This document shows positions 8,994 to 35,742 of a stretch of DNA of 57,957 nt, piece after piece (position 1 is the stretch's first letter; each line of letters starts with the position of its first letter). The notes beneath the pieces were generated by a model. It ran no database searches. It was not told where the DNA came from and saw only the letters and a list, made by a program, of their open reading frames with translations. A program made the translations under genes and the position numbers. This stretch comes from a virus. The stretch covers positions 1 through 57,957 of the IMG/VR virus record IMGVR_UViG_3300035698_006647; one strand, given 5' to 3'.

Positions 8994-9197
8994 ATGCAAC
9001 AAACATCATCAACAAGCACAGGATTCCTTTCTATTTTATCAATTTTATTCATCGGTCTAAAACTCGGCGGTGTTATCACTTGGTCTTGGTGGTGGGTACT
9101 TGCTCCGTTATGGGGAGGGATGGCACTGCTGCTTGCCATAATTGCAGTTGTCATTGTTGTACTAGGAATTATTAGTGTTGTAAAGAAATCACGATAG
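8994..9197 (+). CDS. small membrane protein (67 aa)
   Basis: Ser/Thr-rich N-terminus and two hydrophobic helices (ILSILFIGLKLGGVITWSWW and LLLAIIAVVIVVLGIISVV), with a basic C-terminus (KKSR). It lies between the RNA ligase and the kinase/phosphatase. No known function. Confidence 0.5.
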   Translation: MQQTSSTSTGFLSILSILFIGLKLGGVITWSWWWVLAPLWGGMALLLAIIAVVIVVLGIISVVKKSR

Positions 9198-9198
9198 T

Positions 9199-9339
9199 AT
9201 GACAGACACAGACAAAGCAAGAAAGGTTGCTGCTATTATAGATCTCATCCACCCGTCCAACGAAGGTGATTGGGTAGAACATATAGACTGCTCCTACAGC
9301 GAATTTATAGACTTAATAAACGAATTATGGCAAAACTAG
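9199..9339 (+). CDS. small hypothetical protein (46 aa)
   Basis: ATG just after the previous TAG stop and a TAG end inside the start of the kinase gene (13-nt overlap). Sequence MTDTDKARKVAAIIDLI followed by an acidic segment. Too short to classify. The overlap suggests coupling with the kinase gene. Confidence 0.4.
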   Translation: MTDTDKARKVAAIIDLIHPSNEGDWVEHIDCSYSEFIDLINELWQN

Positions 9340-23955: not shown

Positions 23956-24678
23956 ATGAAGTCACTTCTCAACGATGATACAGCGCAGTATCTTAAAAAA
24001 ATAGATTATACAAGCACATGGAGTGTTGGCCATCATTACAGGTTCCTACTATTTGCTAATTACGTAGTTAAATCTGGTGCCAAGAAGGTGCTTGATGTAG
24101 GATTCGGAAAAAACATGCTGATTCATTATCTAATAGATGCTGGGTTTGATGGCGAGTATATTGCAGTGGACATCAATCAGGACTACATTGATGCAGGACA
24201 GCAGGAATGGGATTCTGAGATCAGTAAGAGGGATGGTTGTGAGTGCAGTGCACAATACGTGTTCGGGGAAACAGTAAACATGGAGGTCGACGTTGTTGTG
24301 CTTGGTGAGTTTGTGGAACACATCCCAAAGGACACAGTCAAAGACGTTCTTGCAGGGTACAGGAAGCAACTAACTGATGGTGGATCAGTTATTATTTCCA
24401 CACCTAACAAGCATAACGGTGAACTAAACTGGCCGGACGATCATGAGGATGAGTTTGAGTTAGACGAACTCCTTGAGGTAGTAGCTGGGAGTGGCCTTGT
24501 ATCTCACCAAGTTGTAGGGTATTGGAACAACACAGCAGGTGTCAAATCACACCTAACTAAGGAGCAGTTGGCTACGTACGAAAATGATGCTGCGTATCTA
24601 CCAGCATCTTTACTAAACGTACAGCACTGTTTGTCATACCCACGGGATTCAAGGGCAGTAATTGTAATTGCAAAATAA
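23956..24678 (+). CDS. SAM-dependent methyltransferase
   Basis: 240 aa class I Rossmann enzyme: motif I VLDVGFGKNML, acidic loop IAVDINQDYID, motif IV VVVLGEFVEHIP, then YRKQLTDGGSVIISTPNKHN. This is the UbiE/Methyltransf_11-like pattern. The substrate is unknown. Placed between a dNMP kinase and a glycosyltransferase-like gene, it could act on DNA bases or on a sugar; this is inference. Confidence 0.75.
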   Translation: MKSLLNDDTAQYLKKIDYTSTWSVGHHYRFLLFANYVVKSGAKKVLDVGFGKNMLIHYLIDAGFDGEYIAVDINQDYIDAGQQEWDSEISKRDGCECSAQYVFGETVNMEVDVVVLGEFVEHIPKDTVKDVLAGYRKQLTDGGSVIISTPNKHNGELNWPDDHEDEFELDELLEVVAGSGLVSHQVVGYWNNTAGVKSHLTKEQLATYENDAAYLPASLLNVQHCLSYPRDSRAVIVIAK

Positions 24679-24679
24679 C

Positions 24680-25057
24680 ATGGGAATGCATTTTGATGTA
24701 GCAGTATACAGCAAGACAAAGTTTCGTGAATCACTCAAGGAAACACACAGTGATGACAATGCCAAGGTCGTCATGGCAGCTGTAGAAGCTGCGTCAGCAG
24801 GGGATGACAGTGTGTTTGCACTTCTTGCATGTGAATACTGGGATGACTATAACCCAAGGTGGGAACTACCAAGACTCATACAGGCGTTGGCGATTGATGT
24901 GACAACCTACGATGGTGTGGAGGAACTTGACAAATACAGCATAGGCACCAACCACCAAGCGTTCAACGCTGAGGAGTGGTACAGCGATAACACTGGTAAG
25001 TCGTTACCTGCTCATCCATACGACGATGACTATGATGATGATAAAGATATTAACTAA
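24680..25057 (+). CDS. acidic hypothetical protein (125 aa)
   Basis: ATG 24680, one base after the methyltransferase stop (24668 lies within it). Acidic, ending in an Asp-rich tail (YDDDYDDDKDIN). No domain recognised. Coupled to the methyltransferase and glycosyltransferase-like genes. Confidence 0.5.
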   Translation: MGMHFDVAVYSKTKFRESLKETHSDDNAKVVMAAVEAASAGDDSVFALLACEYWDDYNPRWELPRLIQALAIDVTTYDGVEELDKYSIGTNHQAFNAEEWYSDNTGKSLPAHPYDDDYDDDKDIN

Positions 25058-25066
25058 CTTATACTT

Positions 25067-26011
25067 ATGAAAATTGGAATCTACAAACCGTTCAAGAAAG
25101 TGTACTTTCATGATGACAAAGAAGACAACGCAGCATGGAGTTTTGAGGTAACAACAGTTGCCAAGATATTAGCAAGGCAAGGGCACAAGGTCAGTATGTT
25201 GAGTGACACTGATCTTAGGGATGGCGCGTTTATTAACATAGACACATCTGGGCTGAATGAGATATATGACAGGATCATACTGTTCAGCGGTACATTTTCA
25301 CTTGATAAAGAAGGTGAAGGAATCATAGACATTCTAAAAGGACTTACTCCTCGCCTAGACTTCATGCTCACCGATCTTCGTCTTGTACCAGAGGATAAGT
25401 CAAAATATGAGATGTTTGACACTATCTACACCCAGGCTACCAAGCCTATAGAGTCAATAGGCCACTTAGCAAAACAAAAGTATGGTGCTATCTCAGAGTT
25501 TATACTTTACAAGCATGAATGGGACCTGTCGACTGAAGAAATGAATGCAAACAAGAGCACTACATTTTATTTCGGAGGCACTGAACGCGGTAGACTGGAC
25601 GACTTCATTGAGTATGTGTGGAGACCGAACCATGTTATCACAACTAAAAGTGCGTTCTTTCAAACTGAAAACAGGGTTAACCGTCACGAATACATGAAAC
25701 TGTTAGATGACACAAAGTACAGTATTGTTATTGCTGATGTTGATTACAACGAAAACAGCTTCATCACACCCAGACCTTACGAGTACTACATTCATGATAT
25801 AGTAGCGTTTGTGGATTCCAAGTTTGATCCTGATGGTCACATCGTACCAGTCAACGACTGGTGTAGAGTGTCCAGCTTTAAAGAGATGCAGGTAAAAATA
25901 AATTACCTTGAAGAGAATGAGGAAGAACGAATGCAGTTGCTAATGAAGCAGCGACTTGTAATAACCGATGAACACATCACTGGGTCTTATGTCTATGAAA
26001 CCATCAAATAA
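25067..26011 (+). CDS. GT-B glycosyltransferase-like protein
   Basis: 314 aa. The N-terminus MKIGIYKPFKKVYFHD and VTTVAKILARQGHKVSML has the Rossmann start of GT-B transferases. Later segments include TFYFGGTERGRLDDFIEYV and FITPRPYEYYIHDIVAFVDS, the latter like the Pro-Glu-rich nucleotide-sugar-binding half. T4 DNA glucosyltransferases share this overall layout. With a dCMP-hydroxymethylase-like enzyme nearby it is a candidate DNA base glycosylase-transferase. Assignment is by pattern only. Confidence 0.5.
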   Translation: MKIGIYKPFKKVYFHDDKEDNAAWSFEVTTVAKILARQGHKVSMLSDTDLRDGAFINIDTSGLNEIYDRIILFSGTFSLDKEGEGIIDILKGLTPRLDFMLTDLRLVPEDKSKYEMFDTIYTQATKPIESIGHLAKQKYGAISEFILYKHEWDLSTEEMNANKSTTFYFGGTERGRLDDFIEYVWRPNHVITTKSAFFQTENRVNRHEYMKLLDDTKYSIVIADVDYNENSFITPRPYEYYIHDIVAFVDSKFDPDGHIVPVNDWCRVSSFKEMQVKINYLEENEEERMQLLMKQRLVITDEHITGSYVYETIK

Positions 26012-26588
26012 GCAAGTATCACTTGACAGAGTACACTTGGCATATCACAAAAGATATGCTGTCACCTACCCTGACTTTGATCTTGGTTTTTTTAACGGGA
26101 ACAGTATTCTGTTTGTGTCAGATGCACCTCTTAAGCAGAGTGTTACTAGGATAGTTAGTGTTCCTAACGAAGACACACTCAAGGCTGCTGACATTGATTC
26201 GAGCACTCGTGTGCTTAACTCTAGTGTAGGTCACGTTATAAAAGGTGTGGCACCTGGGCAATGGGATACGATATCTTGCACAAGTGTTCACAAGACACAG
26301 GGCCATGAAGACAGACCTGCCTTGAACTCAGAAAGAGGTGAGGAGTTTGAGATCCTTCTCAATCAGATCAAGTACCTACAGCCTAACCTGATTATTCTGC
26401 TAGGAGAGATAACAGGTCTTCGTTTCCACGTAGAAGAGTATTATGAACTTAGACTGTACGACGGAAAAAGTATAGTAATGATGATACCGGACGATCTGGA
26501 ATCAGAAAAATCTATCCTTAGGGCTAAGCTAGCGGTCATGGACGCAAGCGAATACTATGCATTATCAGGTCTTAACAAAATTGTATGA
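25995..26588 (+). CDS. hypothetical alpha/beta protein, possibly UDG-like fold
   Basis: Possible starts are ATG 25968, 25989 and 25995; the last gives the least overlap. Segments NSILFVSDAPL, APGQWDTISCTSVHKTQ and LQPNLIILLGEITGLRF recall the core of uracil-DNA-glycosylase-type proteins (order strand, Asn/Asp loop, LLG strand), but key residues are not clear. It ends TGA in an ATGA overlap with the HNH gene. Confidence 0.35.
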   Translation: MKPSNKQVSLDRVHLAYHKRYAVTYPDFDLGFFNGNSILFVSDAPLKQSVTRIVSVPNEDTLKAADIDSSTRVLNSSVGHVIKGVAPGQWDTISCTSVHKTQGHEDRPALNSERGEEFEILLNQIKYLQPNLIILLGEITGLRFHVEEYYELRLYDGKSIVMMIPDDLESEKSILRAKLAVMDASEYYALSGLNKIV

Positions 26589-26890
26589 AATTAAGAAACC
26601 CATTCACTGCTGAAAATAGAGAGCTGTTCAGATATAAGTACGATTGTGATGTATGCGGAATGAGTGGAGTGGATGCACTCCATCATATTCTTGGAAGAGT
26701 GTCAAGCTCTCCACTTAACGCGTCAACTGTGCATAACCATAAATGCCATATCGGTAACTATGCACTGGACTCGTTTGACACACAGGCAAGGCTACTTAAA
26801 AACACACTGCAGTATCTGTTACAGGAAGGGTATGTGCTGACACCAGCAGACGTTCAATTTCAGGCTGATTATGCACTGTACTATGCCTAA
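26585..26890 (+). CDS. HNH-type nuclease (101 aa)
   Basis: CDVCGMSGVDALHHILGR supplies a CxxC pair and the His-His of an HNH core; SPLNASTVHNHKCHIGN supplies the Asn and the final His residues. The small size is typical of phage HNH nucleases. It may cut recombination or packaging intermediates, or be a structure-specific nuclease as in other recombination operons. Coupled by ATGA to the gene before it. Confidence 0.65.
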   Translation: MKLRNPFTAENRELFRYKYDCDVCGMSGVDALHHILGRVSSSPLNASTVHNHKCHIGNYALDSFDTQARLLKNTLQYLLQEGYVLTPADVQFQADYALYYA

Positions 26891-27425
26891 CAATAAACAC
26901 AGCAGTAAACTAAAGTTTGGGCTTCTTGCTGAGGACTACTTCCTTCAAGCTGCTGCAGCTCAACTCAAGGATCACTTTCCATGGGTTAGTGTTTTAGAGA
27001 GACGGTCTACAGCTGAGCGTTGTAGAGTTACAAAAGACACTTTCTCAGAAGTAGATGCCAAGATCACAGTGGACAGGTGCGGCAAGGCTCCGTACTCCAC
27101 ACTCATGGATTTCAAGACAACGTCTGATCCAAAACATAAATACTCAAAACATAAAGCAGGCTGGTATGGAGGAACACTCCTTATGAGCCACGCTTGCCAC
27201 AATGCAATGATACGTCGTGACAACTCAATGCTGTTTGTTCTATTCATGGGAGATGGCCACCCTGTGATAGAGGTGTTTGACTATTGCAAGTTGGAACAGT
27301 TTGGGCCAGAGATGATACAAGGTAATTCAAAACACAGGGTAGGGTTTTCAGATAATGCAAGAGTGGACCGCATGTATGTAAACACCACAGCAGAGTTTTT
27401 ATCAATATCTAAGATACTATTATGA
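26883..27425 (+). CDS. PD-(D/E)XK nuclease-like protein (180 aa)
   Basis: ATG 26883 overlaps the previous stop (ATGCCTAA). EVDAKITVD and LMDFKTTSD give the E...D...D-x-K arrangement of the PD-(D/E)XK fold (DFK as the D-x-K element). The fold is common in phage exonucleases and junction resolvases. It ends TGA in an ATGA overlap with the next gene. Specificity unknown. Confidence 0.5.
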   Translation: MPNNKHSSKLKFGLLAEDYFLQAAAAQLKDHFPWVSVLERRSTAERCRVTKDTFSEVDAKITVDRCGKAPYSTLMDFKTTSDPKHKYSKHKAGWYGGTLLMSHACHNAMIRRDNSMLFVLFMGDGHPVIEVFDYCKLEQFGPEMIQGNSKHRVGFSDNARVDRMYVNTTAEFLSISKILL

Positions 27426-27655
27426 TTACAGTAAACGACCTGATAACAGTTCTAAAGACACTGCCTAAGACAGCAGTAGTTCTAGTAGACTCAGATCAAG
27501 AAGGTAACAACACCATGACCATGTACGGAGTTAGCACAGGGTTTGCAGATACAAGTGAGCATGGGAGTATAGATGTTTATTCAAAGGAAGACCTTGCTGA
27601 CAACGACATGAAGTCAGACGACCTCAGTGAGTGTGTTGTAATACTGCCAGGTTAG
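27422..27655 (+). CDS. hypothetical protein (77 aa)
   Basis: Starts in an ATGA overlap. A small acidic alpha/beta protein (VNDLITVLKTLPKTAVVLVDSD, ECVVILPG). No family recognised. Confidence 0.5.
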   Translation: MITVNDLITVLKTLPKTAVVLVDSDQEGNNTMTMYGVSTGFADTSEHGSIDVYSKEDLADNDMKSDDLSECVVILPG

Positions 27656-27656
27656 T

Positions 27657-28094
27657 ATGACATATTCAGATAACAACACGGAGCAAAAGGTGGTGATGGT
27701 GTCAGGTGGGTTTGACCCTGTACATGTGGGGCATTTACGAATGTTTGAAGAAGCCAGCAGGCTAGGTACCTCATTGATTGTTGTGCTAAATTGTGATGAC
27801 TGGTTGACAAGAAAGAAAGGGAAAGCATTCATGTCACAGACAGAAAGGAAGGAGCTAATAGAAGGGTTTCGGTGTGTTGACAGAGTAGAGATCCTGCAGT
27901 CAGATCATGACCATGTGTGTGAGGCCCTTCGTAAATACAGACCAGATGTGTTTGCAAACGGAGGTGACAGAAAAAGTGATAACACTCCGGAGTACAGAGT
28001 GTGTGCCAGTCTCAAGATAGAGATGGCATTTGATGTAGGGCATGGAGGCAAGGTGCAGTCAAGTTCAGAGATGTTAAAGAATTACAATGGCTAA
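27657..28094 (+). CDS. cytidylyltransferase-family nucleotidyltransferase
   Basis: 145 aa. The HxGH motif is in SGGFDPVHVGHLRMFE, followed by LIVVLNCDDWLTRKKGKAFM and the C-terminal FANGGDRK, as in glycerol-3-phosphate cytidylyltransferase and the ADP-heptose synthase cytidylyltransferase domain. It forms a CDP- or ADP-linked small molecule. In this context it could make an activated sugar or alcohol for DNA modification; the substrate is unknown. It overlaps the RuvC-like gene by 8 nt. Confidence 0.75.
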   Translation: MTYSDNNTEQKVVMVSGGFDPVHVGHLRMFEEASRLGTSLIVVLNCDDWLTRKKGKAFMSQTERKELIEGFRCVDRVEILQSDHDHVCEALRKYRPDVFANGGDRKSDNTPEYRVCASLKIEMAFDVGHGGKVQSSSEMLKNYNG

Positions 28095-28575
28095 GCAATA
28101 TCTAGGCATTGACGGAGGTCATGCTGGAGCACTAACTGTAATAGAAGGTGACTCTGTAGTTGAAAAGATTGTCATGCCTATTCAAAAAACATCTGCTAGC
28201 AGGAATGAGTACAACTGCTTTGATATAATAACTTTTCTGAACAAGTACCCTGATGCCACAGTAGTGTTTGAAAAGGCACACGCTATGCCACAGCTTGGGT
28301 CTGTTCAGGCATTTAACTTCGGCAAGGGGTTTGGCATGATGATAGGTATCCTCACTGCCTTAAAAATGAAGTTTCATATTGTGCATGCAAAGACATGGCA
28401 ATCTGAAATGTTCAAAGATCTACCTAAGCAAGACACAAAAGCTATGAGTTGCATGGTGGCACAGCGACTGTTTCCTAGCGAAGACTTTACTCCTACAGAG
28501 CGTAGCAACAAACTACATGACGGGTTTACTGACTCTGTGTTACTAGCTGAGTTTGGTAGACGCAGAAACTTATAA
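28087..28575 (+). CDS. RuvC-like Holliday junction resolvase
   Basis: 162 aa. Acidic residues of the RNase H-like fold are visible: GIDGGHAGAL (first Asp), VVFEKAHAMP (Glu) and KLHDGFTDSVLLAEF (C-terminal Asp pair), plus AKTWQSEMF. This is the short phage RuvC form. It would resolve branched DNA before packaging. Confidence 0.75.
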   Translation: MAKQYLGIDGGHAGALTVIEGDSVVEKIVMPIQKTSASRNEYNCFDIITFLNKYPDATVVFEKAHAMPQLGSVQAFNFGKGFGMMIGILTALKMKFHIVHAKTWQSEMFKDLPKQDTKAMSCMVAQRLFPSEDFTPTERSNKLHDGFTDSVLLAEFGRRRNL

Positions 28576-28590
28576 GTAATACCACACTAT

Positions 28591-28839
28591 ATGAGAACAG
28601 AACATGACATAATCGTCTGCAAGACCTGCATGCACGGTAGGTTCAAAGGAACATATTGTAAGAATTGCAAGAGCACCAAGTCGTATTACGTAGCAGTAGC
28701 ACTGATGCGGTCGCATAGAATAGCAAACCCCAAAGATGCAGTAGGATCAGTAGCAGTAGGCATGGGAAAGGACTATGTGAAACGTGTGTACGGTGTGAAG
28801 CTATCACTGTTTCGGCGGGTTCGGTATTTGCTAGGATAG
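28591..28839 (+). CDS. zinc-ribbon hypothetical protein (82 aa)
   Basis: CKTCMHGRFKGTYCKNCKS contains two CxxC pairs, a likely zinc ribbon. The C-terminal half is basic. It starts 15 nt after the RuvC-like gene and ends the operon. Function unknown. Confidence 0.5.
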   Translation: MRTEHDIIVCKTCMHGRFKGTYCKNCKSTKSYYVAVALMRSHRIANPKDAVGSVAVGMGKDYVKRVYGVKLSLFRRVRYLLG

Positions 28840-28879
28840 TGTATAATTAACATAGGGCAAATGACTGCTCATTTCCACG

Positions 28880-29035
28880 ATGAAACAAAAAAAGAAAACA
28901 TCAAATGAAACTAGAATACACAGACCAAGTGTCGCCTCTTCCTCAGGAAGAAAATATGTCAACAGAGGACCGATGTGGTTCTTCCACAAACGAGGAACTC
29001 ACCCGAGATCCTTTGCAAACCATACTCCAGTTTGA
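28880..29035 (+). CDS. small basic protein (51 aa)
   Basis: Very basic (MKQKKKTSNETRIHRP, SGRKYVNRGPMWFFHKRG), ends TGA. It lies downstream of a TATAAT at about 28844-28849 and upstream of a terminator at 29065, so it could be its own short transcript. May bind RNA or DNA; no family. Confidence 0.4.
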   Translation: MKQKKKTSNETRIHRPSVASSSGRKYVNRGPMWFFHKRGTHPRSFANHTPV

Positions 29036-29064
29036 GTACTGACTAACCTGCATACTGGTTCCAC

Positions 29065-29103
29065 ATGCTGCTAGCCTAACCCATAGGCTAGTGGCATTTT
29101 TTC
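29065..29103 (+). terminator. rho-independent terminator
   Basis: CTAGCCTA (29071-29078) pairs with TAGGCTAG (29084-29091), extended by ATGC/GCAT outer pairs, followed by six T. It separates the replication block from the Ro60 operon. Confidence 0.85.
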
Positions 29104-29121
29104 TTACACTGCCAAAAAAAA

Positions 29122-29169
29122 GTTGTTAACAGGTCCGGTATGTACAACTATTGGCAAGCGTGGTATTAT
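29122..29169 (+). promoter_or_regulatory. phage promoter module for the Ro60 operon
   Basis: The clearest copy: GTTGTTAACAGG at 29122-29133, TGTACA at 29141-29146, TATTAT at 29164-29169, 17-nt spacer. First gene at 29200. Confidence 0.8.
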
Positions 29170-29199
29170 ATACTTAATTACAAAATAACGTTCTTACAT

Positions 29200-29484
29200 A
29201 TGCTTACACAAAAGAAAATCAAAGAAGTTGTACCTCAAGGCGAGTTAACTTCTGATCAAATCAGATGGATTTCAAAAAATGAAGAAGCGTTGCGTGAAGC
29301 CTTCTCATTGAAGTACCCTTCAGCAAGAAACCAGTTCAACCTGGAAGTGCCATCAAACATAAAGCCTGTTGAGAGGAGCTTGGTCGTTAACTCAGAAGGC
29401 AGAGTTATATTTTCTACATCCATGGCATATGTTTGCAACATCACTTCACAATCCCTTACAGCAATGGGATACCCACTTAACTAA
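29200..29484 (+). CDS. hypothetical protein cotranscribed with Ro60 (94 aa)
   Basis: ATG 29200 is 30 nt after the TATTAT box; the in-frame ATG at 29140 overlaps the promoter. N-terminal helix (MLTQKKIKEVVP) and a small domain with LVVNSEGRVIFSTSMAYV. Two bases separate it from the Ro60 gene, so the two probably work together. No family recognised. Confidence 0.5.
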   Translation: MLTQKKIKEVVPQGELTSDQIRWISKNEEALREAFSLKYPSARNQFNLEVPSNIKPVERSLVVNSEGRVIFSTSMAYVCNITSQSLTAMGYPLN

Positions 29485-29486
29485 AC

Positions 29487-30956
29487 ATGACAAGATTTAA
29501 CAAACCACAGCAGAATACTACGGAAAACCATGAAGGGTCCACAGCATTCATGCATTCACCTGAATTGCAGCTGTATTCGTTGGTTGTGACTTGCATGGTC
29601 AGTGATAAGTTTTACGAATCATCTGATGATCAACTGGTTCGACTAAGAGGTCTTCTACCTACAGTAGACCCTAAGTTTGCTGTACAACTTGCAATTTATG
29701 CTAGAGAAGAGATGCATCTAAGAACAATACCTCTTGTTCTAATGATAGAGCTAGCCAGGATCCACTCAGGTGACAACCTTGTTTCCCAAGGTGTTGGTAG
29801 AGTGATTCAGAGGGTTGATGAAATAACAGAAATGCTTGCGTATTACTGTGCTGCTAACAACCGTAATGATGTTGCTCCGTTGTCTAAGCAAATTCAGAAG
29901 GGGTTACAGGTGGCGTTTAACAAGTTCAATCACTACCAGTTTGCCAAGTACAACAGGCCTGGTAAGGTGACACTTAAAGATGCACTGTTCATTGTTAGAC
30001 CGAGCAGTGATACGTTCAAGCAGTCAGAAGTGTTTGCAATGATTGCATCAGGCACGCTTGGATCAGCAGACACATGGGAAACCTCTCTGTCCTCAGGGCT
30101 AGATAAGAAAGAAGCATGGGAGGAGTTAATCATGAATGACAAGCTTGGTTACATGGCCATGATGAGAAACCTAAGAAACTTCGTACAGGCAGGCATCTCT
30201 AAGGATGCACTAGTTAAGGTGTGCCAATTCATATCTGCTAAGGAACGGGTACTTGCGTCTAAGCAACTCCCATTTAGATTCTACTCAGCGTATAGAATGT
30301 TGAAAGAGGTGGAAGGTGACGGGGTGACGATGATCCTAGACTCTCTGAATAAGGCAGTCAAGCATTCAATAGCCAACATACCTTTTTTCAGTGAAACCGA
30401 AAGTGTCATGATTGCATGTGACGTATCTGCATCAATGATGGTGCCTCTGTCTGACAAGAGCGTAGTTGAGTATTACGATGTAGGTCTCCTTCTTGGGTCT
30501 TTACTTCAGGCCAACTCCAACTTCGTCCAGACAGGACTGTTCGGAGATACATTCAAGGTGTACCCAATGGCATCCACCAACATACTGGAGAATGCTTGCC
30601 AGCTAAGAAGGTGTGAAGGCGATGTAGGTTACGCTACAAACGGTCACACTGTTATTGAGTATCTGACCCAGACAGGTAAGAGTGTTGACAAAGTCGTTAT
30701 GTTTACTGACTGTCAGATGACTGATTCATCATACGACGGACGTGCCCTTAGTGCAGCTTGGAACCAGTACAAAACACAACACCCTAACTCCAAATTATAC
30801 ATTTTCAACTTGTCAGGCTATGGCAAGGAAGTGTTCTCACAACATGCCAATGACATTTTTCAAGTGGCTGGTTGGAGTGAAAAAATATTTGATATGCTTC
30901 ATTCGTTGGAATCAGGGGACTCAGTTATTTCAACAATTCAAAAAATTAGTATATAA
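29487..30956 (+). CDS. rsr-like: Ro60 / TROVE-domain RNA-binding protein
   Basis: 489 aa, close to bacterial Rsr (~530 aa). The N-terminal TROVE HEAT-repeat region is visible (VDPKFAVQLAIYAREEMHLR, LSKQIQKGLQVAFNKFNHYQ, FRFYSAYRML). The C-terminal von Willebrand A domain has a complete MIDAS motif, DVSASMM starting at D312, then NGHTVIEYL and VVMFTDCQMTD. Ro60 proteins form rings that bind Y RNAs and misfolded RNAs and can deliver RNA to PNPase. A tRNA-like RNA begins 12 nt after the stop, matching the bacterial rsr-yrl arrangement. Confidence 0.88.
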   Translation: MTRFNKPQQNTTENHEGSTAFMHSPELQLYSLVVTCMVSDKFYESSDDQLVRLRGLLPTVDPKFAVQLAIYAREEMHLRTIPLVLMIELARIHSGDNLVSQGVGRVIQRVDEITEMLAYYCAANNRNDVAPLSKQIQKGLQVAFNKFNHYQFAKYNRPGKVTLKDALFIVRPSSDTFKQSEVFAMIASGTLGSADTWETSLSSGLDKKEAWEELIMNDKLGYMAMMRNLRNFVQAGISKDALVKVCQFISAKERVLASKQLPFRFYSAYRMLKEVEGDGVTMILDSLNKAVKHSIANIPFFSETESVMIACDVSASMMVPLSDKSVVEYYDVGLLLGSLLQANSNFVQTGLFGDTFKVYPMASTNILENACQLRRCEGDVGYATNGHTVIEYLTQTGKSVDKVVMFTDCQMTDSSYDGRALSAAWNQYKTQHPNSKLYIFNLSGYGKEVFSQHANDIFQVAGWSEKIFDMLHSLESGDSVISTIQKISI

Positions 30957-30957
30957 T
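30952..30957 (+). promoter_or_regulatory. TATAAT box before the Y-RNA-like gene
   Basis: TATAAT at 30952-30957, overlapping the stop codon of the Ro60 gene and 12 nt before the conserved 5' end (30969) of the tRNA-like RNA. The -35 is weak (TTCAAC at 30929-30934, 17-nt spacer). Confidence 0.45.
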
Positions 30958-30968
30958 ACTAGTACTAG

Positions 30969-31093
30969 GTGCTGTAGAAAACAGTTACTTCCACTTTAAG
31001 GACAAGGTCGGTGGTTCGATTCCACCTCAACACTTCGGTGTTGATAGCTCAATGGTAGAGCATGTATAACACACCTGTTTTCGCTTGTTGCCC
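30969..31093 (+). ncRNA. Y-RNA-like RNA with permuted tRNA-mimic domain (copy 1)
   Basis: The order of elements is 5' strand, T arm, closed acceptor stem, D arm, 3' strand. T arm: GGTGG-TTCGATT-CCACC (31010-31026). Acceptor-like stem TCAACAC/GTGTTGA (31027-31033 with 31038-31044) is closed by a UUCG loop. D arm: GCTC-AATGGTA-GAGC (31047-31061). The ends pair as GAAAACAG (30977-30984) with CTGTTTTC (31075-31082), and ACAAG (31002-31006) with CTTGT (31084-31088), crossing into a pseudoknot. Both pairings covary with copy 2 at 34753. Bacterial YrlA RNAs carry a tRNA-mimicking module beside rsr, which fits; a permuted tRNA is the alternative. Confidence 0.65.
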
Positions 31094-31101
31094 TAGTACA
31101 T

Positions 31102-31175
31102 ACCTTTATAGCTTAGTGGTAAAGCAGGCGGCTTTTAACCGTCCGACCTAAGTTCGATTCTTAGTGGGGGTACCA
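31102..31175 (+). tRNA. tRNA-Lys(TTT)
   Basis: Acceptor ACCTTTA pairs with TGGGGGT (with wobbles); discriminator A and encoded CCA (31173-31175). D arm GCTT/AAGC, anticodon loop CTTTTAA, T arm CTAAG-TTCGATT-CTTAG. First canonical tRNA of the array, 8 nt after the Y-like RNA. Confidence 0.85.
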
Positions 31176-31190
31176 GTTCTAAACAAACTG

Positions 31191-31404
31191 AGAGGAAGAT
31201 GGTAGAGTGTTCCAAGTTGGAGTGGCGGAATTCATTAAAGACGCTTATAATCCTTGTCCTGATCCTCTAAGGTAAGTGGAGGACGCCCCCAAGCTGCATT
31301 GTAAGACTTGGAATTGGGAGACCGTGGAAGCAGTAGAATGCTCCGACGTGCAAAGGTGGAAGTCCTTTGCCTCCAACATAGAGCACAGTACTGCTGTTTC
31401 CTCT
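31191..31404 (+). ncRNA. structured RNA with tRNA-Leu-like ends and expanded centre
   Basis: Outer helix AGAGGAA (31191-31197) with TTCCTCT (31398-31404). Inside, GTTGGAG (31216-31222) pairs with CTCCAAC (31371-31377) like an acceptor stem. TGGCGGAATT and AGACGC resemble a tRNA-Leu D arm, and GCAAAGG-TGGAAGT-CCTTTGC (31350-31370) sits where a T arm would be, but with a 7-bp stem and a non-standard loop. About 100 nt with further hairpins replace the anticodon arm (e.g. CCAAG/CTTGG near 31289-31311). It is not a normal tRNA and shows no group I intron core. Function unknown. Confidence 0.5.
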
Positions 31405-31480
31405 GGACGGTTAGCCTAGTGGTTAAGGCACACAGCTTATACCTGTGCATACGAAGGTTCGATTCCTTCACCGTCTACCA
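31405..31480 (+). tRNA. tRNA-Ile(TAT)
   Basis: Acceptor GGACGGT/ACCGTCT, discriminator A, encoded CCA (31478-31480). Anticodon stem CACAG/CTGTG with loop CTTATAC, anticodon TAT. T arm GAAGG-TTCGATT-CCTTC. It would read AUA directly without lysidine. Confidence 0.85.
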
Positions 31481-31503
31481 GTGTTACAACACTGAAAAGA
31501 AGT

Positions 31504-31624
31504 GTTCTTCATAGTGAGGTGGCGGACAGTGAGCCGTAATGGACTCGGACATAGGAATATCAAACCTTAGATGTCCTAGTTGTGATGATCCTGCAAGTCA
31601 AACCTTGCCCTCACTGTGAAGAAC
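31504..31624 (+). ncRNA. structured RNA closed by a 16-bp helix
   Basis: 31504-31519 (GTTCTTCATAGTGAGG) pairs with 31609-31624 (CCTCACTGTGAAGAAC) with only one G-U. Inside, GGACAT pairs with ATGTCC around 31546-31576, enclosing an AGG/CCT continuation. No ORF. The motif CAAACCTTAG inside it recurs at 31680-31688 in the next structured RNA. No known family recognised. Confidence 0.55.
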
Positions 31625-31632
31625 ATTTCAAG

Positions 31633-31842
31633 CATGACTATCTTTCGCGCCACATTAGCAGGTGAATGACTGAAGATACCAAACCTTAGTGGAGGCCACG
31701 TACGGGCACCGCGCTTTAACAGGAAGAGGGAGGATAGGCCACCGATTCCTGCTGTGATCCATCCACTGTCCTAGGTGGTGCATGGAAATAGACTTATGTC
31801 ATGAGGGTGTAAACCCCTCGTGGTGCGCGAAAGGTAGTCATG
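31633..31842 (+). ncRNA. structured RNA closed by a ~20-bp helix
   Basis: 31633-31653 (starting CATGACTATCTTTCGCGC) pairs with 31820-31842 (ending GCGCGAAAGGTAGTCATG) with one wobble and one or two bulged bases. Internal hairpins include CAGGAA/TTCCTG, GAGGG/CCCCTC (31803-31819) and GTGG-AGG-CCAC. About 210 nt without ORF, immediately before tRNA-Val. Such a long closing helix should be an RNase III substrate. Family unknown. Confidence 0.55.
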
Positions 31843-31850
31843 GCGAACAT

Positions 31851-31924
31851 AGGTCATTAACTCAGTGGTAGAGTGCCTGTCTTACATACAGGAAGCCCTC
31901 AGTTCAAATCTGAGATGACCTACC
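31851..31924 (+). tRNA. tRNA-Val(TAC)
   Basis: Acceptor AGGTCAT/ATGACCT, discriminator A, then CC. D arm ACTC/GAGT, anticodon arm CCTGT-CTTACAT-ACAGG, T arm CTCAG-TTCAAAT-CTGAG. Confidence 0.88.
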
Positions 31925-31945
31925 GGTTCACTAGCAACTGAAAAC

Positions 31946-32018
31946 AGGCCTTTAGCATAATTGGAAGTGCAACACGGTTCTAACGTGTTAGATGTCAGTT
32001 CGAGTCTGGCAAGGCTTA
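31946..32018 (+). tRNA. tRNA-Arg(TCT)
   Basis: Acceptor AGGCCTT/AAGGCTT, discriminator A followed by CC. Anticodon arm ACACG-GTTCTAA-CGTGT gives anticodon TCT. T arm GTCAG-TTCGAGT-CTGGC. It is preceded by a 17-nt repeat also found before tRNA-Arg(TCG) at 39768. Confidence 0.85.
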
Positions 32019-32019
32019 C

Positions 32020-32090
32020 CGCGGGGTGGAGAAACGGCATCTCGGTGGTCTCATAAACCACAGAACCCAGTTCAACTCTGGGCCCCGCGA
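32020..32090 (+). tRNA. tRNA-Met(CAT)
   Basis: Acceptor CGCGGGG/CCCCGCG, discriminator A. Anticodon arm GTGGT-CTCATAA-ACCAC, T arm CCCAG-TTCAACT-CTGGG. C1-G72 is paired and the three G-C pairs of initiators are absent, so it looks like an elongator (or a CAT-bearing Ile precursor). It directly abuts the preceding tRNA. Confidence 0.82.
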
Positions 32091-32110
32091 CAACGATAAC
32101 AAAACAAACA

Positions 32111-32683
32111 ATGATAATCTACACCAGGAAAAAAGAAATACAGTTTGCACAGACCTCAAGTGAAATAGAAGGAGAACTCTCTGAAAGTGCATGGCAGGAC
32201 CATCTTGATGCGTGGGACTTCCTTAAGGAAACTGATACCGTGTCTTTGCATGATCTGTTAGAATGCCACTACGGGCTGCAAATACGGCTGAGACCTGACA
32301 TTGCCGGTAAGTTTAGAACATGCAATGTTAGGGTCGGCTCCCACATAATGCCTCATTATGCCAGTGTTGTAGCAATGACACGCGCATGGCTGCGTAAGTG
32401 GACAGGCAGCAAGTTGCCTAAGACTGAGGAAGAGTGTAGGACTGCTCATATAGAGTTTGAGAATATACACCCCTTTGAAGATGGCAACGGTAGAGTAGGC
32501 CGGTGTATACTGAATTGGCACAGGCGTAAGCTAAACCTGCCGATTCTGATTATCCATGTAGGTGAAGAGCAGCAGGCATATTACGGCTGGTTCAAAGAGG
32601 CACAAAACAGTGATGCACTTTATAAAACACTAGGCAGTGACTGTGTCAGATCCTACACAAAGAAGTTTACCAAAAAGAGATAA
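32111..32683 (+). CDS. fic-like: Fic-domain protein (class II, N-terminal inhibitory motif)
   Basis: 190 aa. The active-site motif HPFEDGNGRVGR (H120) matches HxFx(D/E)GNGRxxR fully, so AMP (or another NMP) transfer is expected. Near the N-terminus, SSEIEG matches the inhibitory motif (S/T)xxxE(G/N), which places a Glu in the ATP site. Fic enzymes modify host proteins on Tyr/Ser/Thr. Embedded among tRNAs and before RecA; the target is unknown. Confidence 0.8.
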   Translation: MIIYTRKKEIQFAQTSSEIEGELSESAWQDHLDAWDFLKETDTVSLHDLLECHYGLQIRLRPDIAGKFRTCNVRVGSHIMPHYASVVAMTRAWLRKWTGSKLPKTEEECRTAHIEFENIHPFEDGNGRVGRCILNWHRRKLNLPILIIHVGEEQQAYYGWFKEAQNSDALYKTLGSDCVRSYTKKFTKKR

Positions 32684-32693
32684 CTCACACCAC

Positions 32694-32876
32694 ATGACCA
32701 CAAAAGATAAATCTGTTGAACCAGAAGACAAGACAAACAGGGCAGGCCGAAGAGCAAGTGCAAAACAGCGTCGTGGAGTGGCTGAGCATAACCGCAAGTA
32801 CAAATTAGCTGTACACTTGAATGACGGTAGCACAGCAAAGCGAAAGAGATTACAAGCACTATGTAAAAACACGTAA
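32694..32876 (+). CDS. small basic protein (60 aa)
   Basis: ATG 32694, 10 nt after the fic gene; stop 4 nt before RecA. Lys/Arg-rich (NRAGRRASAKQRRGVAEHNRKYK). Possibly a nucleic-acid-binding accessory of RecA or Fic; nothing more can be said. Confidence 0.45.
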   Translation: MTTKDKSVEPEDKTNRAGRRASAKQRRGVAEHNRKYKLAVHLNDGSTAKRKRLQALCKNT

Positions 32877-32880
32877 GAAT

Positions 32881-33897
32881 ATGGCAAAGAAAGCAACAAG
32901 CAAAGGCACAATCTCAGATGCACTTGCAATACTGGAAAAGAAGCATGGTAAAGGTGCTGTTATGAAGTTGGCAAAAGGGGAACAGATCACCAAGGTTGAG
33001 CTGCTTCCTACAGGTATTTATTCTATCGACAAGGCACTAGGTGGAGGGTTTGCAAGAGGAAGAGTGGTAGAGCTGTACGGAAATGAAGGGTCCGGTAAGA
33101 CTACCCTTGCACTGCAGACCATCGCTAAAGCCCAGGCCGATGGACTTAAGGCTGCTTTCATAGATGTGGAACACGCGTTCAGTCTGCAATATGCCAGATC
33201 TTTAGGAGTTGACCTAGAAGAGTTGTATTTTTCACAGCCTAAGTCAGCAGAGATGGCGATGGACATTGCCAAGACACTTGCCCAAACAGGCGAGTTTGCT
33301 GTGGTGGTAGTTGACTCAGTGGCAGCATTAACACCTGACACAGAGTTTGATGGAGAGATAGGTAAGGCACAGATAGGGCACCTTGCTAGATTCATGTCGG
33401 CTGCACTAAGGCAGATTGTTGGTGAGTTCCACAAGACAGGCACATCACTTATTTTTATCAACCAGCTCAGAATGAAAATTGGTGTAATGTTCGGAAACCC
33501 TGAGACAACACCTGGTGGAAATGCACTAAAGTATTATGCATCACAGCGACTTGCTATACGTAAGTCTACAAAGATAGATAATAAGGAAGGTGTCACCATA
33601 GGGTACAACGCACTCATTAGAGTAGAGAAAAACAAGATAGCGCTACCTAACATTAAAGCAACTGTGCCTGTGACAAATGGTAAAGGGTTTGACAAGGTTG
33701 CTGACATGTTCCAGGTTGCGGAATTACTTAATGTCATAACTAAGGAGAAGGCGTCCTACTTTTTCAATGGTGAGAAACTTGGAGTGTACGAGGTAAACGC
33801 AAAACAGGCACTGTACGACAGTCTAGACATATACACAGCAATAGAAGAAGCAGTCATAGCGTTAAACAACCCTGATGAAAGCGCTAACATAGTATAG
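32881..33897 (+). CDS. recA-like: RecA recombinase
   Basis: 338 aa, near the length of bacterial RecA (~350). Walker A GNEGSGKTT (about residues 66-74), the Glu of IDVEHAFS, Walker B VVVVDSVAAL, loop 2 region FINQLRMKIGVMFGNPETTPGGNALKYYAS (shown in part by GVMFGNPETTPGG). It follows cellular RecA rather than UvsX. It performs strand exchange, complementing the annealase/exonuclease and RuvC genes. ATG 32881 is preferred; the upstream frame runs into another gene. Confidence 0.93.
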   Translation: MAKKATSKGTISDALAILEKKHGKGAVMKLAKGEQITKVELLPTGIYSIDKALGGGFARGRVVELYGNEGSGKTTLALQTIAKAQADGLKAAFIDVEHAFSLQYARSLGVDLEELYFSQPKSAEMAMDIAKTLAQTGEFAVVVVDSVAALTPDTEFDGEIGKAQIGHLARFMSAALRQIVGEFHKTGTSLIFINQLRMKIGVMFGNPETTPGGNALKYYASQRLAIRKSTKIDNKEGVTIGYNALIRVEKNKIALPNIKATVPVTNGKGFDKVADMFQVAELLNVITKEKASYFFNGEKLGVYEVNAKQALYDSLDIYTAIEEAVIALNNPDESANIV

Positions 33898-33899
33898 CA

Positions 33900-34418
33900 A
33901 TGAAAACAACAGAAGAATTTAAAGATGAGTTTCCGAAGACTTACAAGGAGATTAGATCTGCAGAGTTAAGAAAACAGCAAAGCAACAAGGCAGACACTGA
34001 GTGTTCCCATCGATGCTGGATTAAGAAGTGTAGTTTTTGCTCAGTGATCATGGAGTCAGACAGCCAGGTAAACTACAAATGCGGGGAGGATGTTAAAACG
34101 GAGTTTAGTGTACTGACAGGCATAGTGACAAACTTCAATGTATCTGAGAAACTACAAAACCGCAGGATCGGCCAGAGAACTAAGTTATATTGGGTCTACT
34201 CCCCTGTGAATGATGAGATTGGACTTAGATGTTATGAGAATGTGTCAATACAACACACTCAAATAATTGCTGCATACTCATCATCTGAGTTAGTGGCAAA
34301 ACTACGTAGGTTACCTGTAGAAATCATGACAGATGAGGTCTACCTTTATATAGGACAGAACGCGTTTGACCCTAACCGACTTGCTAGGCTATATCTTAAA
34401 CTAACAGCAGTACAGTAA
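33900..34418 (+). CDS. cysteine-rich hypothetical protein (172 aa)
   Basis: Starts two bases after RecA. A cluster of Cys (TECSHRCWIKKCSFCSVI, then YKCGEDV) may bind zinc. The rest is alpha/beta without a recognised motif. Probably cotranscribed with RecA. Confidence 0.5.
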   Translation: MKTTEEFKDEFPKTYKEIRSAELRKQQSNKADTECSHRCWIKKCSFCSVIMESDSQVNYKCGEDVKTEFSVLTGIVTNFNVSEKLQNRRIGQRTKLYWVYSPVNDEIGLRCYENVSIQHTQIIAAYSSSELVAKLRRLPVEIMTDEVYLYIGQNAFDPNRLARLYLKLTAVQ

Positions 34419-34513
34419 AGGTCACCTCAACAACATTCACGAGGCCCAGCCTGCACCTTAGGCGGGTGTGGCACAGGAAAGGGTTAGAATATACCTCTAC
34501 TGCACATAACAAC
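34419..34513 (+). other. short intergenic stretch before the second tRNA group
   Basis: About 95 nt with a GCCTGCACCTTAGGC-type inverted repeat near 34449-34463 but no T run. No gene seen. Confidence 0.3.
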
Positions 34514-34560
34514 GTTGTTAACATGTCACAATGTGCATCTCCAAGAGAACGTGGTATAAT
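34514..34560 (+). promoter_or_regulatory. phage promoter module for the second tRNA group
   Basis: GTTGTTAACATG at 34514-34525, TGTGCA at 34532-34537, TATAAT at 34555-34560 (17-nt spacer). tRNA-Asn begins 20 nt later. Confidence 0.7.
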
Positions 34561-34580
34561 AGTTATATCTTGGAGGAAAT

Positions 34581-34652
34581 TGACCTGTAGCCAAGTGGTA
34601 AGGCAAGGGATTGTTACTCCCTGTACCGCAGGTTCGAATCCTGCCGGGTCAG
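34581..34652 (+). tRNA. tRNA-Asn(GTT)
   Basis: Acceptor TGACCTG/CGGGTCA, discriminator G. D arm GCC/GGC, anticodon arm AGGGA-TTGTTAC-TCCCT, T arm GCAGG-TTCGAAT-CCTGC. Confidence 0.87.
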
Positions 34653-34663
34653 CAAGGTTAAAT

Positions 34664-34721
34664 CTCATAGATTCGCTTATTGAAAGTAAGTGTATTGTAA
34701 ATACACCGACCTATGAGTACC
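34664..34721 (+). ncRNA. T-armless tRNA-Tyr(GTA)-like RNA
   Basis: CTCATAG (34664-34670) pairs with CTATGAG (34711-34717) as a 7-bp acceptor stem followed by TACC. Inside are a D-like hairpin CTTA-TTGAAAG-TAAG and an anticodon-like hairpin GTGTA-TTGTAAA-TACAC with GTA at the anticodon. Only CGAC lies between it and the acceptor strand, so the T arm is missing. A normal tRNA-Tyr(GTA) exists at 40038. It could be a degenerate tRNA, a mini-tRNA or a decoy. Confidence 0.5.
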
Positions 34722-34752
34722 TATGCAACACACTAGTGTGTCTGCTAAGACG

Positions 34753-34919
34753 GTGCTGTAGACAACAGTTACTTCTACATCTTCAGAAAAAACAATAATG
34801 CATAGCATGCTAAACTTCGGTTTACATGCATAATGAGTGTAGGTTAAGCCTGCGCCTTCTCTGGTAAAGCAGAGTCGTACTAGAGTATTCACTCTTATCA
34901 CTGTTGTCGATTGTTGCCC
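34753..34919 (+). ncRNA. pseudoknotted structured RNA (copy 2 of the Y-like scaffold)
   Basis: Shares with copy 1 the 5' block GTGCTGTAGAC/AAACAG then TTACTTC, and the 3' block CTGTTGTCGATTGTTGCCC. Pairings: GACAACAG (34761-34768) with CTGTTGTC (34901-34908), and ACAAT (34792-34796) with ATTGT (34910-34914). Each helix differs from copy 1 by one compensatory pair. The inserted domain differs: it has a CATG..TAAAC-TTCG-GTTTA..CATG stem, a CTCTG/CAGAG hairpin and GAGTG/CACTC, but no T or D arm. It lies directly before tRNA-Asp. Confidence 0.6.
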
Positions 34920-34927
34920 GTTTGATT

Positions 34928-35001
34928 GCTCTGTTAGTTCAATAGGAGAACGCTACCTTGTCACGGTAGTAACGTCGGAGCGTAACCGTCACAGAGCGCC
35001 A
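34928..35001 (+). tRNA. tRNA-Asp(GTC) with inverted T-loop identities
   Basis: Acceptor GCTCTGT/ACAGAGC, discriminator G, encoded CCA. D arm GTTC/GAAC with GG in the loop, anticodon arm CTACC-TTGTCAC-GGTAG. The T loop is AGCGTAA, with A at 54 and T at 58, the reverse of T54/A58. The T stem GTCGG/CCGTC has one T-T mismatch. Confidence 0.8.
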
Positions 35002-35044
35002 AGGGAGTCAACACTCCTACAGCGCAGTTAACAAACAAACAAGC

Positions 35045-35275
35045 ATGATTAAACAATTAAAAAATGATGATGCTGCACTTATCAAAGAGATTGGGATTAA
35101 ATCATTGTCCAGAGTTGTAGGGTACAATGAGAATGGGGAGCCCGTTGAGTTAGTGTACGTAAAACATTCAGATACAGGATACGAGTGGCATGTAGGAGGG
35201 GAATATCAGAGTGATGCATCACTAAGGTCAGTAGAGAAATATGCACACAGGCTGAATCATTGCCTATTGGTCTAG
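35045..35275 (+). CDS. hypothetical protein (76 aa) overlapping a tRNA
   Basis: Small alpha/beta protein (SLSRVVGYNENGEPVELVYV, YEWHVGGEYQSD). Its last 15 nt form the 5' end of tRNA-Gln, so translation and tRNA processing share sequence. No family recognised. Confidence 0.45.
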   Translation: MIKQLKNDDAALIKEIGIKSLSRVVGYNENGEPVELVYVKHSDTGYEWHVGGEYQSDASLRSVEKYAHRLNHCLLV

Positions 35276-35331
35276 TGGTATGACACCTGCCTTTGAAGCA
35301 GGAGAGCGAGGATCGTTACCTTGATAGGCAG
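35261..35331 (+). tRNA. tRNA-Gln(TTG) with inverted T-loop identities
   Basis: Acceptor TGCCTAT/ATAGGCA, discriminator G. Anticodon arm CCTGC-CTTTGAA-GCAGG. T arm CGAGG-ATCGTTA-CCTTG: A54 and T58 instead of T54 and A58, with T55 C56 kept. Confidence 0.8.
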
Positions 35332-35347
35332 CAGGCTATACATTTAT

Positions 35348-35422
35348 GGGCGATTGGTGATAATAGTAGCACATCCGCCTTGCACGCGGAAGGCGACGGA
35401 GCGTAACCGTCATTGTCCACCA
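35348..35422 (+). tRNA. tRNA-Ala(TGC) with inverted T-loop identities
   Basis: Acceptor GGGCGAT/ATTGTCC, discriminator A, encoded CCA. Anticodon arm TCCGC-CTTGCAC-GCGGA. T arm GACGG-AGCGTAA-CCGTC, the same unusual loop as tRNA-Asp. The G-U pair typical for alanine identity (position 3-70) is present as G3-T70. Confidence 0.82.
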
Positions 35423-35423
35423 A

Positions 35424-35512
35424 GGAGAGATGGCAGAGTGGTTTATCGCACTGGTCTTGAAAACCAGCAAGTCTTCTTAGGCTTCAGAGGTTCGAATCCT
35501 CTTCTCTCCGCA
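35424..35512 (+). tRNA. tRNA-Ser(TGA)
   Basis: Acceptor GGAGAGA/TCTCTCC, discriminator G, CA. Anticodon arm CTGGT-CTTGAAA-ACCAG. Long variable arm (AAGTCTTCTTAGGCTTC) as expected for Ser. T arm AGAGG-TTCGAAT-CCTCT. One base after the preceding CCA. Confidence 0.88.
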
Positions 35513-35514
35513 TT

Positions 35515-35589
35515 GCAGGTATCGTATAGGGGTTATTACGACTGATTTCCAATCAGTTCACGCAGGTTCGAATCCTGCTACCTGCACCA
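35515..35589 (+). tRNA. tRNA-Gly(TCC)
   Basis: Acceptor GCAGGTA/TACCTGC, discriminator A, encoded CCA. Anticodon arm ACTGA-TTTCCAA-TCAGT. T arm GCAGG-TTCGAAT-CCTGC. Confidence 0.87.
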
Positions 35590-35640
35590 GACAACGCAAA
35601 GTGTGCCTACTCACTACAAGGCTCTTGCTTGTTTGACCAT

Positions 35641-35714
35641 ACTCATGTAGCCCAAATGGTAGAGGCAACGGTTTTAGGGACCGTTCAGTGAAAGTTCGAA
35701 TCTTTTCATGAGTA
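35641..35714 (+). tRNA. tRNA-Leu(TAG) with short variable loop
   Basis: Acceptor ACTCATG/CATGAGT, discriminator A. Anticodon arm ACGGT-TTTAGGG-ACCGT, anticodon TAG. The variable region is only about five bases (TCAGT), unlike the long arm of ordinary bacterial tRNA-Leu. T loop TTCGAAT is normal. Confidence 0.78.
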
Positions 35715-35742
35715 CTAGATAGCGATAAGCAATGCACGTATT

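Follow-up and report, generated by a model that had tools for sequence, protein, structure and literature searches.

A phage Ro60 gene accompanied by two Y RNAs, one of them a YrlA-type RNA with a permuted tRNA module

Ro60 ribonucleoproteins (RNPs) provide a link between the RNA quality control of bacteria, of phages and of animals, and Ro60 is a human autoantigen. Chen et al. (RNA, 2014), a study cited in passages of PMC12282133, are said in their abstract to have recorded probable Y RNAs in over 250 species of bacteria and phages. According to passages in PMC8394870, the YrlA domain, which is linked to PNPase, resembles three tRNA arms (D, T and acceptor), and in cellular relatives the tRNA-like module is bound to PNPase and receives modifications from tRNA enzymes; part of PMC11472068 describes the Y RNA structure 6CU1 as superposing on tRNAs with a circular permutation. 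As regards phages, a section of PMC7765460 cites a review on phage YrlA, excerpts of PMC12282133 cite mycobacteriophage Y RNAs and propose Y RNAs for a Listeria phage, and a passage in PMC7824862 reports that a small group among the jumbo phages has a TROVE protein. Here, an IMG/VR virus record (IMGVR_UViG_3300035698_006647) is described, whose 57,957 bases (positions 1–57,957 of the record) are together called the window. On its + strand, a Ro60 gene (rsr; 29487–30956) is followed by a Y RNA of the YrlA type (Y RNA 1; 30962–31099) and by a second Y RNA with a different effector (Y RNA 2; 34748–34923). A phage Ro60 with a Y RNA is an already known kind of system, to which this locus adds a member: a single genome combines a Ro60 of the Bacteroidota type and a pair of T4-type tRNA repair genes with two Y RNAs, both of which have tRNA genes behind them.

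The closest described systems share parts of this arrangement. Like the window, the Salmonella rsr-yrlBA-rtcBA operon, as described in passages of PMC7790460, combines a Ro60 gene with adjacent Y RNAs, one of them tRNA-like, and has a link to RNA repair. In contrast to this operon, the window belongs to a phage, its repair genes are of the T4 polynucleotide kinase (PNK) and Rnl1 type, and its Y RNA follows rsr, heads a tRNA array and carries an anticodon-like arm. RtcB and RtcA had no family match among the 46 window proteins searched, which are not every open reading frame of a record that may be a fragment. The Rsr-Y RNA-PNPase complex of Deinococcus radiodurans (RYPER), as far as parts of PMC8394870 and PMC7790460 describe it, resembles the window in protein fold and in the Y RNA principle. 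The Ro60 of Thermus phage phiLo, with a solved structure (PDB 9l5y), is likewise a phage protein, shares 23% identity with the window Ro60 in the structural alignment and is distant in sequence; its locus (L016) yielded neither a scanner module nor a match to covariance model R1 at E ≤ 0.01, both tools being described below. PDB entry 9kop is near-identical to 9l5y in sequence length and match.

The rsr reading frame encodes a protein of 489 amino acids. It matched the TROVE family PF05731 (E 5.5e-29; 102.1 bits against a Pfam cut-off of 23), the vWA_Ro60 family PF25045 (E 1.1e-6; 29.1 bits against 27.7) and phrog_850 (3.5e-48). In the von Willebrand factor A (vWA) domain, the DxSxS motif (D312-x-S314-x-S316) and D408 of the metal ion-dependent adhesion site (MIDAS) were invariant in alignments of 16 and of 10 Ro60 proteins; the MIDAS threonine is placed at 384 or 388, depending on the alignment. 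An AlphaFold2 model was obtained with a pLDDT of 89.1 and a pTM of 0.89, and its 13 top PDB matches in Foldseek were all Ro60/TROVE structures (TMq 0.57–0.80), including Ro60 2i91 (0.80) and 1yvp (0.79), phage phiLo 9l5y (0.66) and Deinococcus Rsr 2nvo (0.60). The predicted fold thus has the HEAT-repeat ring and the vWA domain by which Ro60/Rsr is defined. A preliminary description of the locus had named a TROVE/vWA protein with an intact MIDAS, and by its domains and predicted fold the product is a genuine Ro60.

The origin of the gene was analyzed in a Ro60 tree, calculated by a quick method from 118 rows out of 178 extracted proteins and the window protein; most Hymenobacter rows and those below 400 amino acids were omitted, and identical rows were retained. 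The window Ro60 was placed within a chromosomal Bacteroidota clade (SH-aLRT 99 and 100); the other 98 viral rows branched elsewhere. The phages cited in the relevant passages of PMC12282133 and PMC7765460 equally combine a Ro60-type protein with a YrlA or other Y RNA. The top identities, 47–48%, were observed with Flammeovirgaceae and Hymenobacter proteins, whereas viral proteins, among the matches listed, reached at most 36% over nearly the full length and at most 40% over shorter stretches. From these sequence comparisons, the gene was probably taken by the phage or its ancestor from a Bacteroidota host. A host cassette carried along as a passenger, with no function in infection, would agree with this grouping and with a lineage that has no close relatives on which conservation could be read. 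Nevertheless, the reading frame and the MIDAS are intact, and the stems of the two Y RNAs differ by a change that keeps a base pair, so that a mere passenger is decidedly unlikely.

Y RNA 1 starts 5 nt past the rsr stop codon, not 12 nt past it as had been stated in the preliminary description. Its Ro60-type stem consists of an outer stem (GUACUAGG/CCUAGUAC), an internal loop (UGUA opposite GCUUGUU) and an inner stem (GAAAACAG/CUGUUUUC); the 5′ strand, with UGUA and the conserved GUUACUU, spans 30962–30989, and the 3′ strand, with GCUUGUU, spans 31075–31099. Enclosed by the inner stem are, in this order, a 3-bp hairpin (30990–31002), a T arm (GGUGG UUCGAUU CCACC; 31010–31026), an acceptor-like stem of 7 bp closed by a UUCG tetraloop (31027–31044) and a D arm (GCUC AAUGGUA GAGC; 31047–31061). 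The T arm, acceptor-like stem and D arm were recognized in the fold, by the module scanner and in the letters themselves; the fold of the 3′ strand was also matched by the covariance model. With −46.5 kcal/mol, the minimum free energy of 30957–31100 was lower than expected (z −3.28), and none of 200 shuffled sequences was as stable. The order of T arm, UUCG-capped acceptor and D arm between pairing flanks had been read correctly from the sequence before. Since a permuted module of T arm, capped acceptor and D arm, a closing stem with a conserved internal loop and an adjacent Ro60 gene are all present, Y RNA 1 is of the YrlA type. Judging from its sequence, the stem would be the part bound by Ro60.

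The assignment was tested with R1, a covariance model built from 37 of 46 viral Y RNAs, the window RNA being withheld on purpose and eight others dropped. Y RNA 1 matched R1 over model positions 1–155 of 155 with 108.9 bits (E 8.4e-27). These values bear on the possibility of an artefact, namely a spacer between tandem tRNA genes in which the T arm of one and the D arm of the next pair by chance. Tandem tRNA junctions do match YrlA models weakly, but the top junction in the same window reached 23.6 bits with R1, and chance pairing explains neither the Ro60-type stem and the second copy at 34752 nor the acceptor with its cap; such an artefact is hardly conceivable. It is also very improbable that the locus is a permuted tRNA gene, circularized and cut at the acceptor to give a functional tRNA. 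Four tRNA arms can indeed be recognized in permuted order, but the acceptor strands are joined by just UUCG; because only four bases lie between them, there is no room for a CCA end or the usual processing, and a separable 5′ end and CCA 3′ end were not found. Moreover, short tetraloops recur among 63 viral modules (trimmed acceptor loop UUCG in 11, GAAA in 7, GTAA in 3 and GCAA in 2), and the Ro60-type stem occupies the site of position 26.

The search with the Rfam YrlA model RF02553 that the preliminary description had proposed gave a match at the locus, but with 36.6 bits, i.e., below the gathering cut-off of 69. Since this match is sub-threshold and 13 of 14 control genomes also contained RF02553 matches at E ≤ 1 (none above the cut-off), the Rfam model alone is weak evidence and was rejected as proof by itself. 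In 15 viral Ro60 loci with a scanner-recognized module, RF02553 likewise gave no match above the cut-off, and by these sequence matches the Rfam model is too narrow. RF02553 shares with Y RNA 1 the order of T arm, acceptor hairpin and D arm; unlike Y RNA 1, its consensus structure has no hairpin at the site of the anticodon-like arm.

Y RNA 1 ends 2 nt before a tRNA-Lys (UUU) gene (31102–31175, + strand) called by both ARAGORN and Rfam. A scan of the + strand between the Ro60 gene and tRNA-Lys gave no terminator-like site; therefore, a single Ro60-Y RNA-tRNA transcript is possible, in which case the 3′ end of Y RNA 1 could arise from RNase P cleavage at the tRNA behind it. A TATAAT hexamer, a possible −10 box, had been noted before the RNA. 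It is present at 30952–30957 (+ strand), over the rsr stop codon; its promoter role could not be upheld. Together with TCAACA, it has 10 of 12 consensus letters and is the best of 15 promoter-like sites in 28500–36000, but since 12.9 such sites were expected, the hexamer is not promoter evidence. Bacteroidota use another promoter consensus.

The 5′ stem strand of Y RNA 1 led to Y RNA 2, as 27 bases (30968–30994) recur at 34752–34778 with 93% identity; the stem-strand pattern occurred twice in the window, with 0.00 occurrences expected. The 5′ strand of this second copy pairs with its own 3′ strand (GGUGCUGUAGACAACAGUUACUUC/ACUGUUGUCGAUUGUUGCC) and the full 191-nt stretch had a z of −2.12, 4 of 200 shuffles being as stable. 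An A-U pair of the Y RNA 1 stem is C-G in Y RNA 2, and because this change keeps the pair, the stem is supported. With R1, Y RNA 2 scored 29.4 bits (E 6.3e-6), both stem strands being matched and the module not. Since this is only moderately above the 23.6 bits of the tRNA junction, the case for Y RNA 2 rests mainly on the duplicated stem. The stretch 34748–34923 is a second Y RNA, in which the Ro60 handle carries a different, non-tRNA effector. A tRNA gene (34928–34998, + strand; Rfam 50.7 bits; not called by ARAGORN) lies 4 nt behind its end. Y RNA 2, the anticodon-like hairpin of Y RNA 1 and the tRNA genes behind both RNAs go beyond the preliminary description. A tRNA-like gene at 35348–35419 was equally found by Rfam and not by ARAGORN, and, as read from the sequence, it has an unusual T loop, AGCGUAA, in common with the gene at 34928–34998.

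In order to place the locus among its relatives, viral and bacterial Ro60 loci were compared. A Ro60 relative was present in 92 of 50,697 phage records and in at least 536 stretches of viral contigs. Loci were retrieved for the best 80 of these at least 536 viral relatives and for the best 80 of the 366 bacterial ones, so the fractions of loci are not population estimates; 98 viral loci comprise the 80 and 18 phage records, some of them duplicates that were not removed. A script that seeks a T arm, a capped acceptor and a D arm was used as module scanner. Such a module, with the UACUUC motif on its 5′ side, adjoined Ro60 in 53 of the 98 viral and 72 of the 80 bacterial loci, always on the rsr strand, and five shuffled sets of the viral loci gave no match. 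The phage records, the viral loci with a module and the published mentions of phage Y RNAs contradict the earlier implication that both partners in a phage are new. As the scanner gave no UACUUC permuted module in 45 of the 98 viral loci (no module of any kind in 41), some of which are recovered by the covariance model, the tRNA mimic is common and not universal. Across 46 viral Y RNAs, all 7 of 7 inner-stem pairs showed changes on both sides, and for covariation over the Ro stem and the anticodon-like, T and D helices, none of 500 shuffles reached the observed score. Among four plasmid Ro60 loci, the Pseudomonas one had no YrlA by any of three methods.

Some of these loci contained further RNAs. 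Up to three YrlA-like matches precede the Ro60 genes of Xanthomonas phage Olaya (L002, 2361–2945) and Caulobacter phage CcrPW (L004, 2015–2622) in regions with no annotated feature; they are sub-threshold in Rfam, and some were confirmed by the scanner. Chromosomal Hymenobacter Ro60 loci have tandem YrlA-like RNAs behind the gene, with five matches in L114 (6000–7119). A match to permuted tmRNA (RF04321; 57.9 bits, cut-off 47) lies about 2.4 kb behind the Ro60 gene of Brevundimonas phage Bambus (L003, 6771–7028). Beside another viral Ro60 locus (L059, 3130–3202), the full tmRNA model RF00023 matched 73 bases with 65.4 bits, which is probably a tRNA-like piece.

The 3-bp hairpin of Y RNA 1 (UCC-ACUUUAA-GGA) stands at the place of an anticodon arm, with a 7-nt loop, the central triplet UUU and C, not U, at position 33; family analysis showed it to be a reduced member of a wider class. 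In 44 of the 63 viral modules, UAC and the T arm are 20–22 nt apart. The 19 sequences with a spacing of 22 nt can be read as a 5-bp stem, a 7-nt loop and a 5-nt variable region, with a mean of 4.58 of 5 pairs formed as compared to 3.94 after swapping halves between sequences (highest of 2000, 4.32), and with U33 in 18 and A38 in all 19 sequences. A stem of at least 3 bp closing a 7-nt loop at the tRNA position was found in 32 of 47 distinct viral spacers of 20–24 nt (window included), with 11.1 expected from shuffles; the spacers of 16 of the 63 modules (12 shorter, 4 longer) fell outside the range of this arm test. In these 32 arms, U33 (30/32), a purine at 37 (31/32) and A38 (30/32) predominated, none of which had played a part in picking the arms, and positions 34–36 were more variable. 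A37 followed U36 in 18 of 18 viral loops as compared to 4 of 14 otherwise (Fisher 1.6e-5), and G37 followed G36 in 8 of 9 as compared to 1 of 23 (7.4e-6); in 58 bacterial loops, the same associations gave 1.5e-5 and 2.3e-5, all four P values ignoring relatedness. Over the alignment of all 46 viral RNAs (A5), arm pairing was observed in 69.1% of cells (56.8% shuffled), and the arm covariation score was 0.312 (0.131 shuffled; reached in 0 of 500 shuffles). A further alignment (A3) holds 26 of the 46, with 20–23 nt spacers; because its rows were selected visually for an apparent arm, the statistics on the arm obtained from it are biased. Against an anticodon arm, two of five measures did not separate from shuffles (both-side-change pairs, 500/500; further pair types, 311/500), and 15 of the 47 spacers had no arm by the rule. 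Overall, an anticodon-like arm is present in 32 of 63 viral YrlA modules, or roughly one half of those analyzed; viral YrlAs with a full 5-bp arm include those of L046 and L059.

In bacteria, the anticodon arm is weaker than in viruses. Stems of at least 3 bp with a 7-nt loop were enriched (0.82 as compared to 0.52 shuffled) in a set that is mostly one genus, Hymenobacter, and full 5-bp arms are found in bacteria such as Acetivibrio (L175, L176) and on a Rhodococcus plasmid (L190). Several results from the bacterial loops weigh against such an arm: 7-nt loops with stems of at least 4 bp were not enriched (0.23 and 0.222 shuffled), 9-nt loops with at least 4 pairs were (0.44 and 0.162), and U33 occurred in 34 and A38 in only 20 of 46 loops.

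U36-A37-A38 is read by t6A enzymes and G36-G37 by m1G37 enzymes. It is conceivable, albeit doubtful, that a large share of YrlAs (roughly one half of the viral RNAs analyzed and many bacterial RNAs) are four-arm mimics. These would be complete permuted tRNAs that are opened at position 26 to take in the Ro60 stem and whose anticodon arm and variable region obey U33, purine 37, A38, U36-A37 and G36-G37; the window RNA would be a member with a shrunken arm. If so, YrlA RNAs could be substrates or decoys for t6A37 and m1G37 enzymes, anticodon nucleases and tRNA ligases, and phage Ro60 RNPs would be tRNA-shaped devices in a conflict of tRNA cleavage and repair. The arm raises the question of which tRNA-reading enzyme is engaged by the YrlA mimic. 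No description of an anticodon arm of YrlA was found in the literature searched, which did not extend to Chen et al. 2014 or Wang et al. 2018.

The tRNA-like loop grammar of the arm in 32 of the 47 testable viral spacers might also point to a decoy or shield, in which the permuted module occupies anticodon nucleases or other tRNA-attacking host defenses and spares real tRNAs, Ro60 only stabilizing the RNA. RNA repair genes of the Rnl1/PNK type in the same phage would suit this role, and the authors of PMC7790460, in a passage of that paper, suggest YrlA as a competitive inhibitor of an anticodon nuclease. However, the 32 viral loops carry 18 different triplets, i.e., many identities and no focus on the targets of one nuclease; the window arm has just 3 bp and C at 33; and, according to passages of PMC7790460, no fragments of Salmonella YrlA were seen, so that it is not a substrate. 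A decoy is therefore rather unlikely.

It appears moderately probable, rather, that the locus is a phage Ro60 RNP cassette. Ro60 would be expected to bind both Y RNAs through their common stem, with Y RNA 1 presenting a circularly permuted tRNA body and Y RNA 2 an effector module of another kind. If the known bacterial RNPs are a guide, the tRNA-like body may dock a host enzyme, as PNPase in Deinococcus, or compete with tRNA for the enzymes that handle it; during infection, damaged or structured RNA would thereby be channelled to decay or repair. RNP formation, the effector partner and the role in infection are inferred. The earlier suggestion that damaged tRNA may be handled or RNA decay steered is a reasonable hypothesis. 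A PNK and a T4-type RNA ligase are the answer of T4 to cut tRNA (cited in a passage of PMC11208441), and because the phage has both, a role in a tRNA damage conflict is plausible; the two enzymes and 22 tRNA genes fit a phage defending its tRNA pool. Several points weigh against the RNP cassette. The link to PNPase is derived from Deinococcus and need not hold for this phage, RF02553 scores Y RNA 1 below its cut-off, and nearly half of the viral loci lack a scanner module. In addition, sequence searches gave no near relatives for a conservation check: two phage proteins compared with viral contigs matched only contigs with 100% identical protein and one partial match of 24% identity, in single-protein scans that detect close relatives only.

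Megablast of 24000–36000 against the phage collection gave no close phage relative, and blastn of 29000–32100 returned only a tRNA-Lys in 6 Microbacterium phage records; in none of the collections searched does the lineage have a close relative with a name. Within IMG/VR, a contig of 75,657 bases contains 13,467 contiguous bases that are identical to the window. The window encodes a family-B DNA polymerase, RecA, primase/helicase and tail proteins, and ARAGORN (20) and Rfam (21) combined gave its 22 tRNA genes. The T4 Rnl1-like RNA ligase (7916–8983, + strand; phrog_562, 1.2e-59) and the PNK (9270–10244, + strand; phrog_505, 6.1e-55) adjoin as a tRNA repair pair (7916–10244), and a nucleotidyltransferase is located at 4780–5526.

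Two further structured stretches lie in the tRNA array. The 229 nt between tRNA-Lys and tRNA-Ile (31176–31404) form a long stem with inner branches (z −2.5; 2 of 200 shuffles as stable). Between tRNA-Ile and tRNA-Val, 370 nt (31481–31850) fold with −145 kcal/mol (z −6.95; 0 of 100 shuffles as stable) into two domains with stems of about 20 bp, a structured RNA with no Rfam match of its own. Both were considered as extra Y RNAs and rejected, the Ro60-strand motif being absent from each; Rfam searches of the two stretches returned only the tRNA-Ile between them and its antisense shadow. A Fic/DOC family protein is also encoded within the array (32111–32683; Pfam 5.1e-13), followed by RecA (32821–33897).

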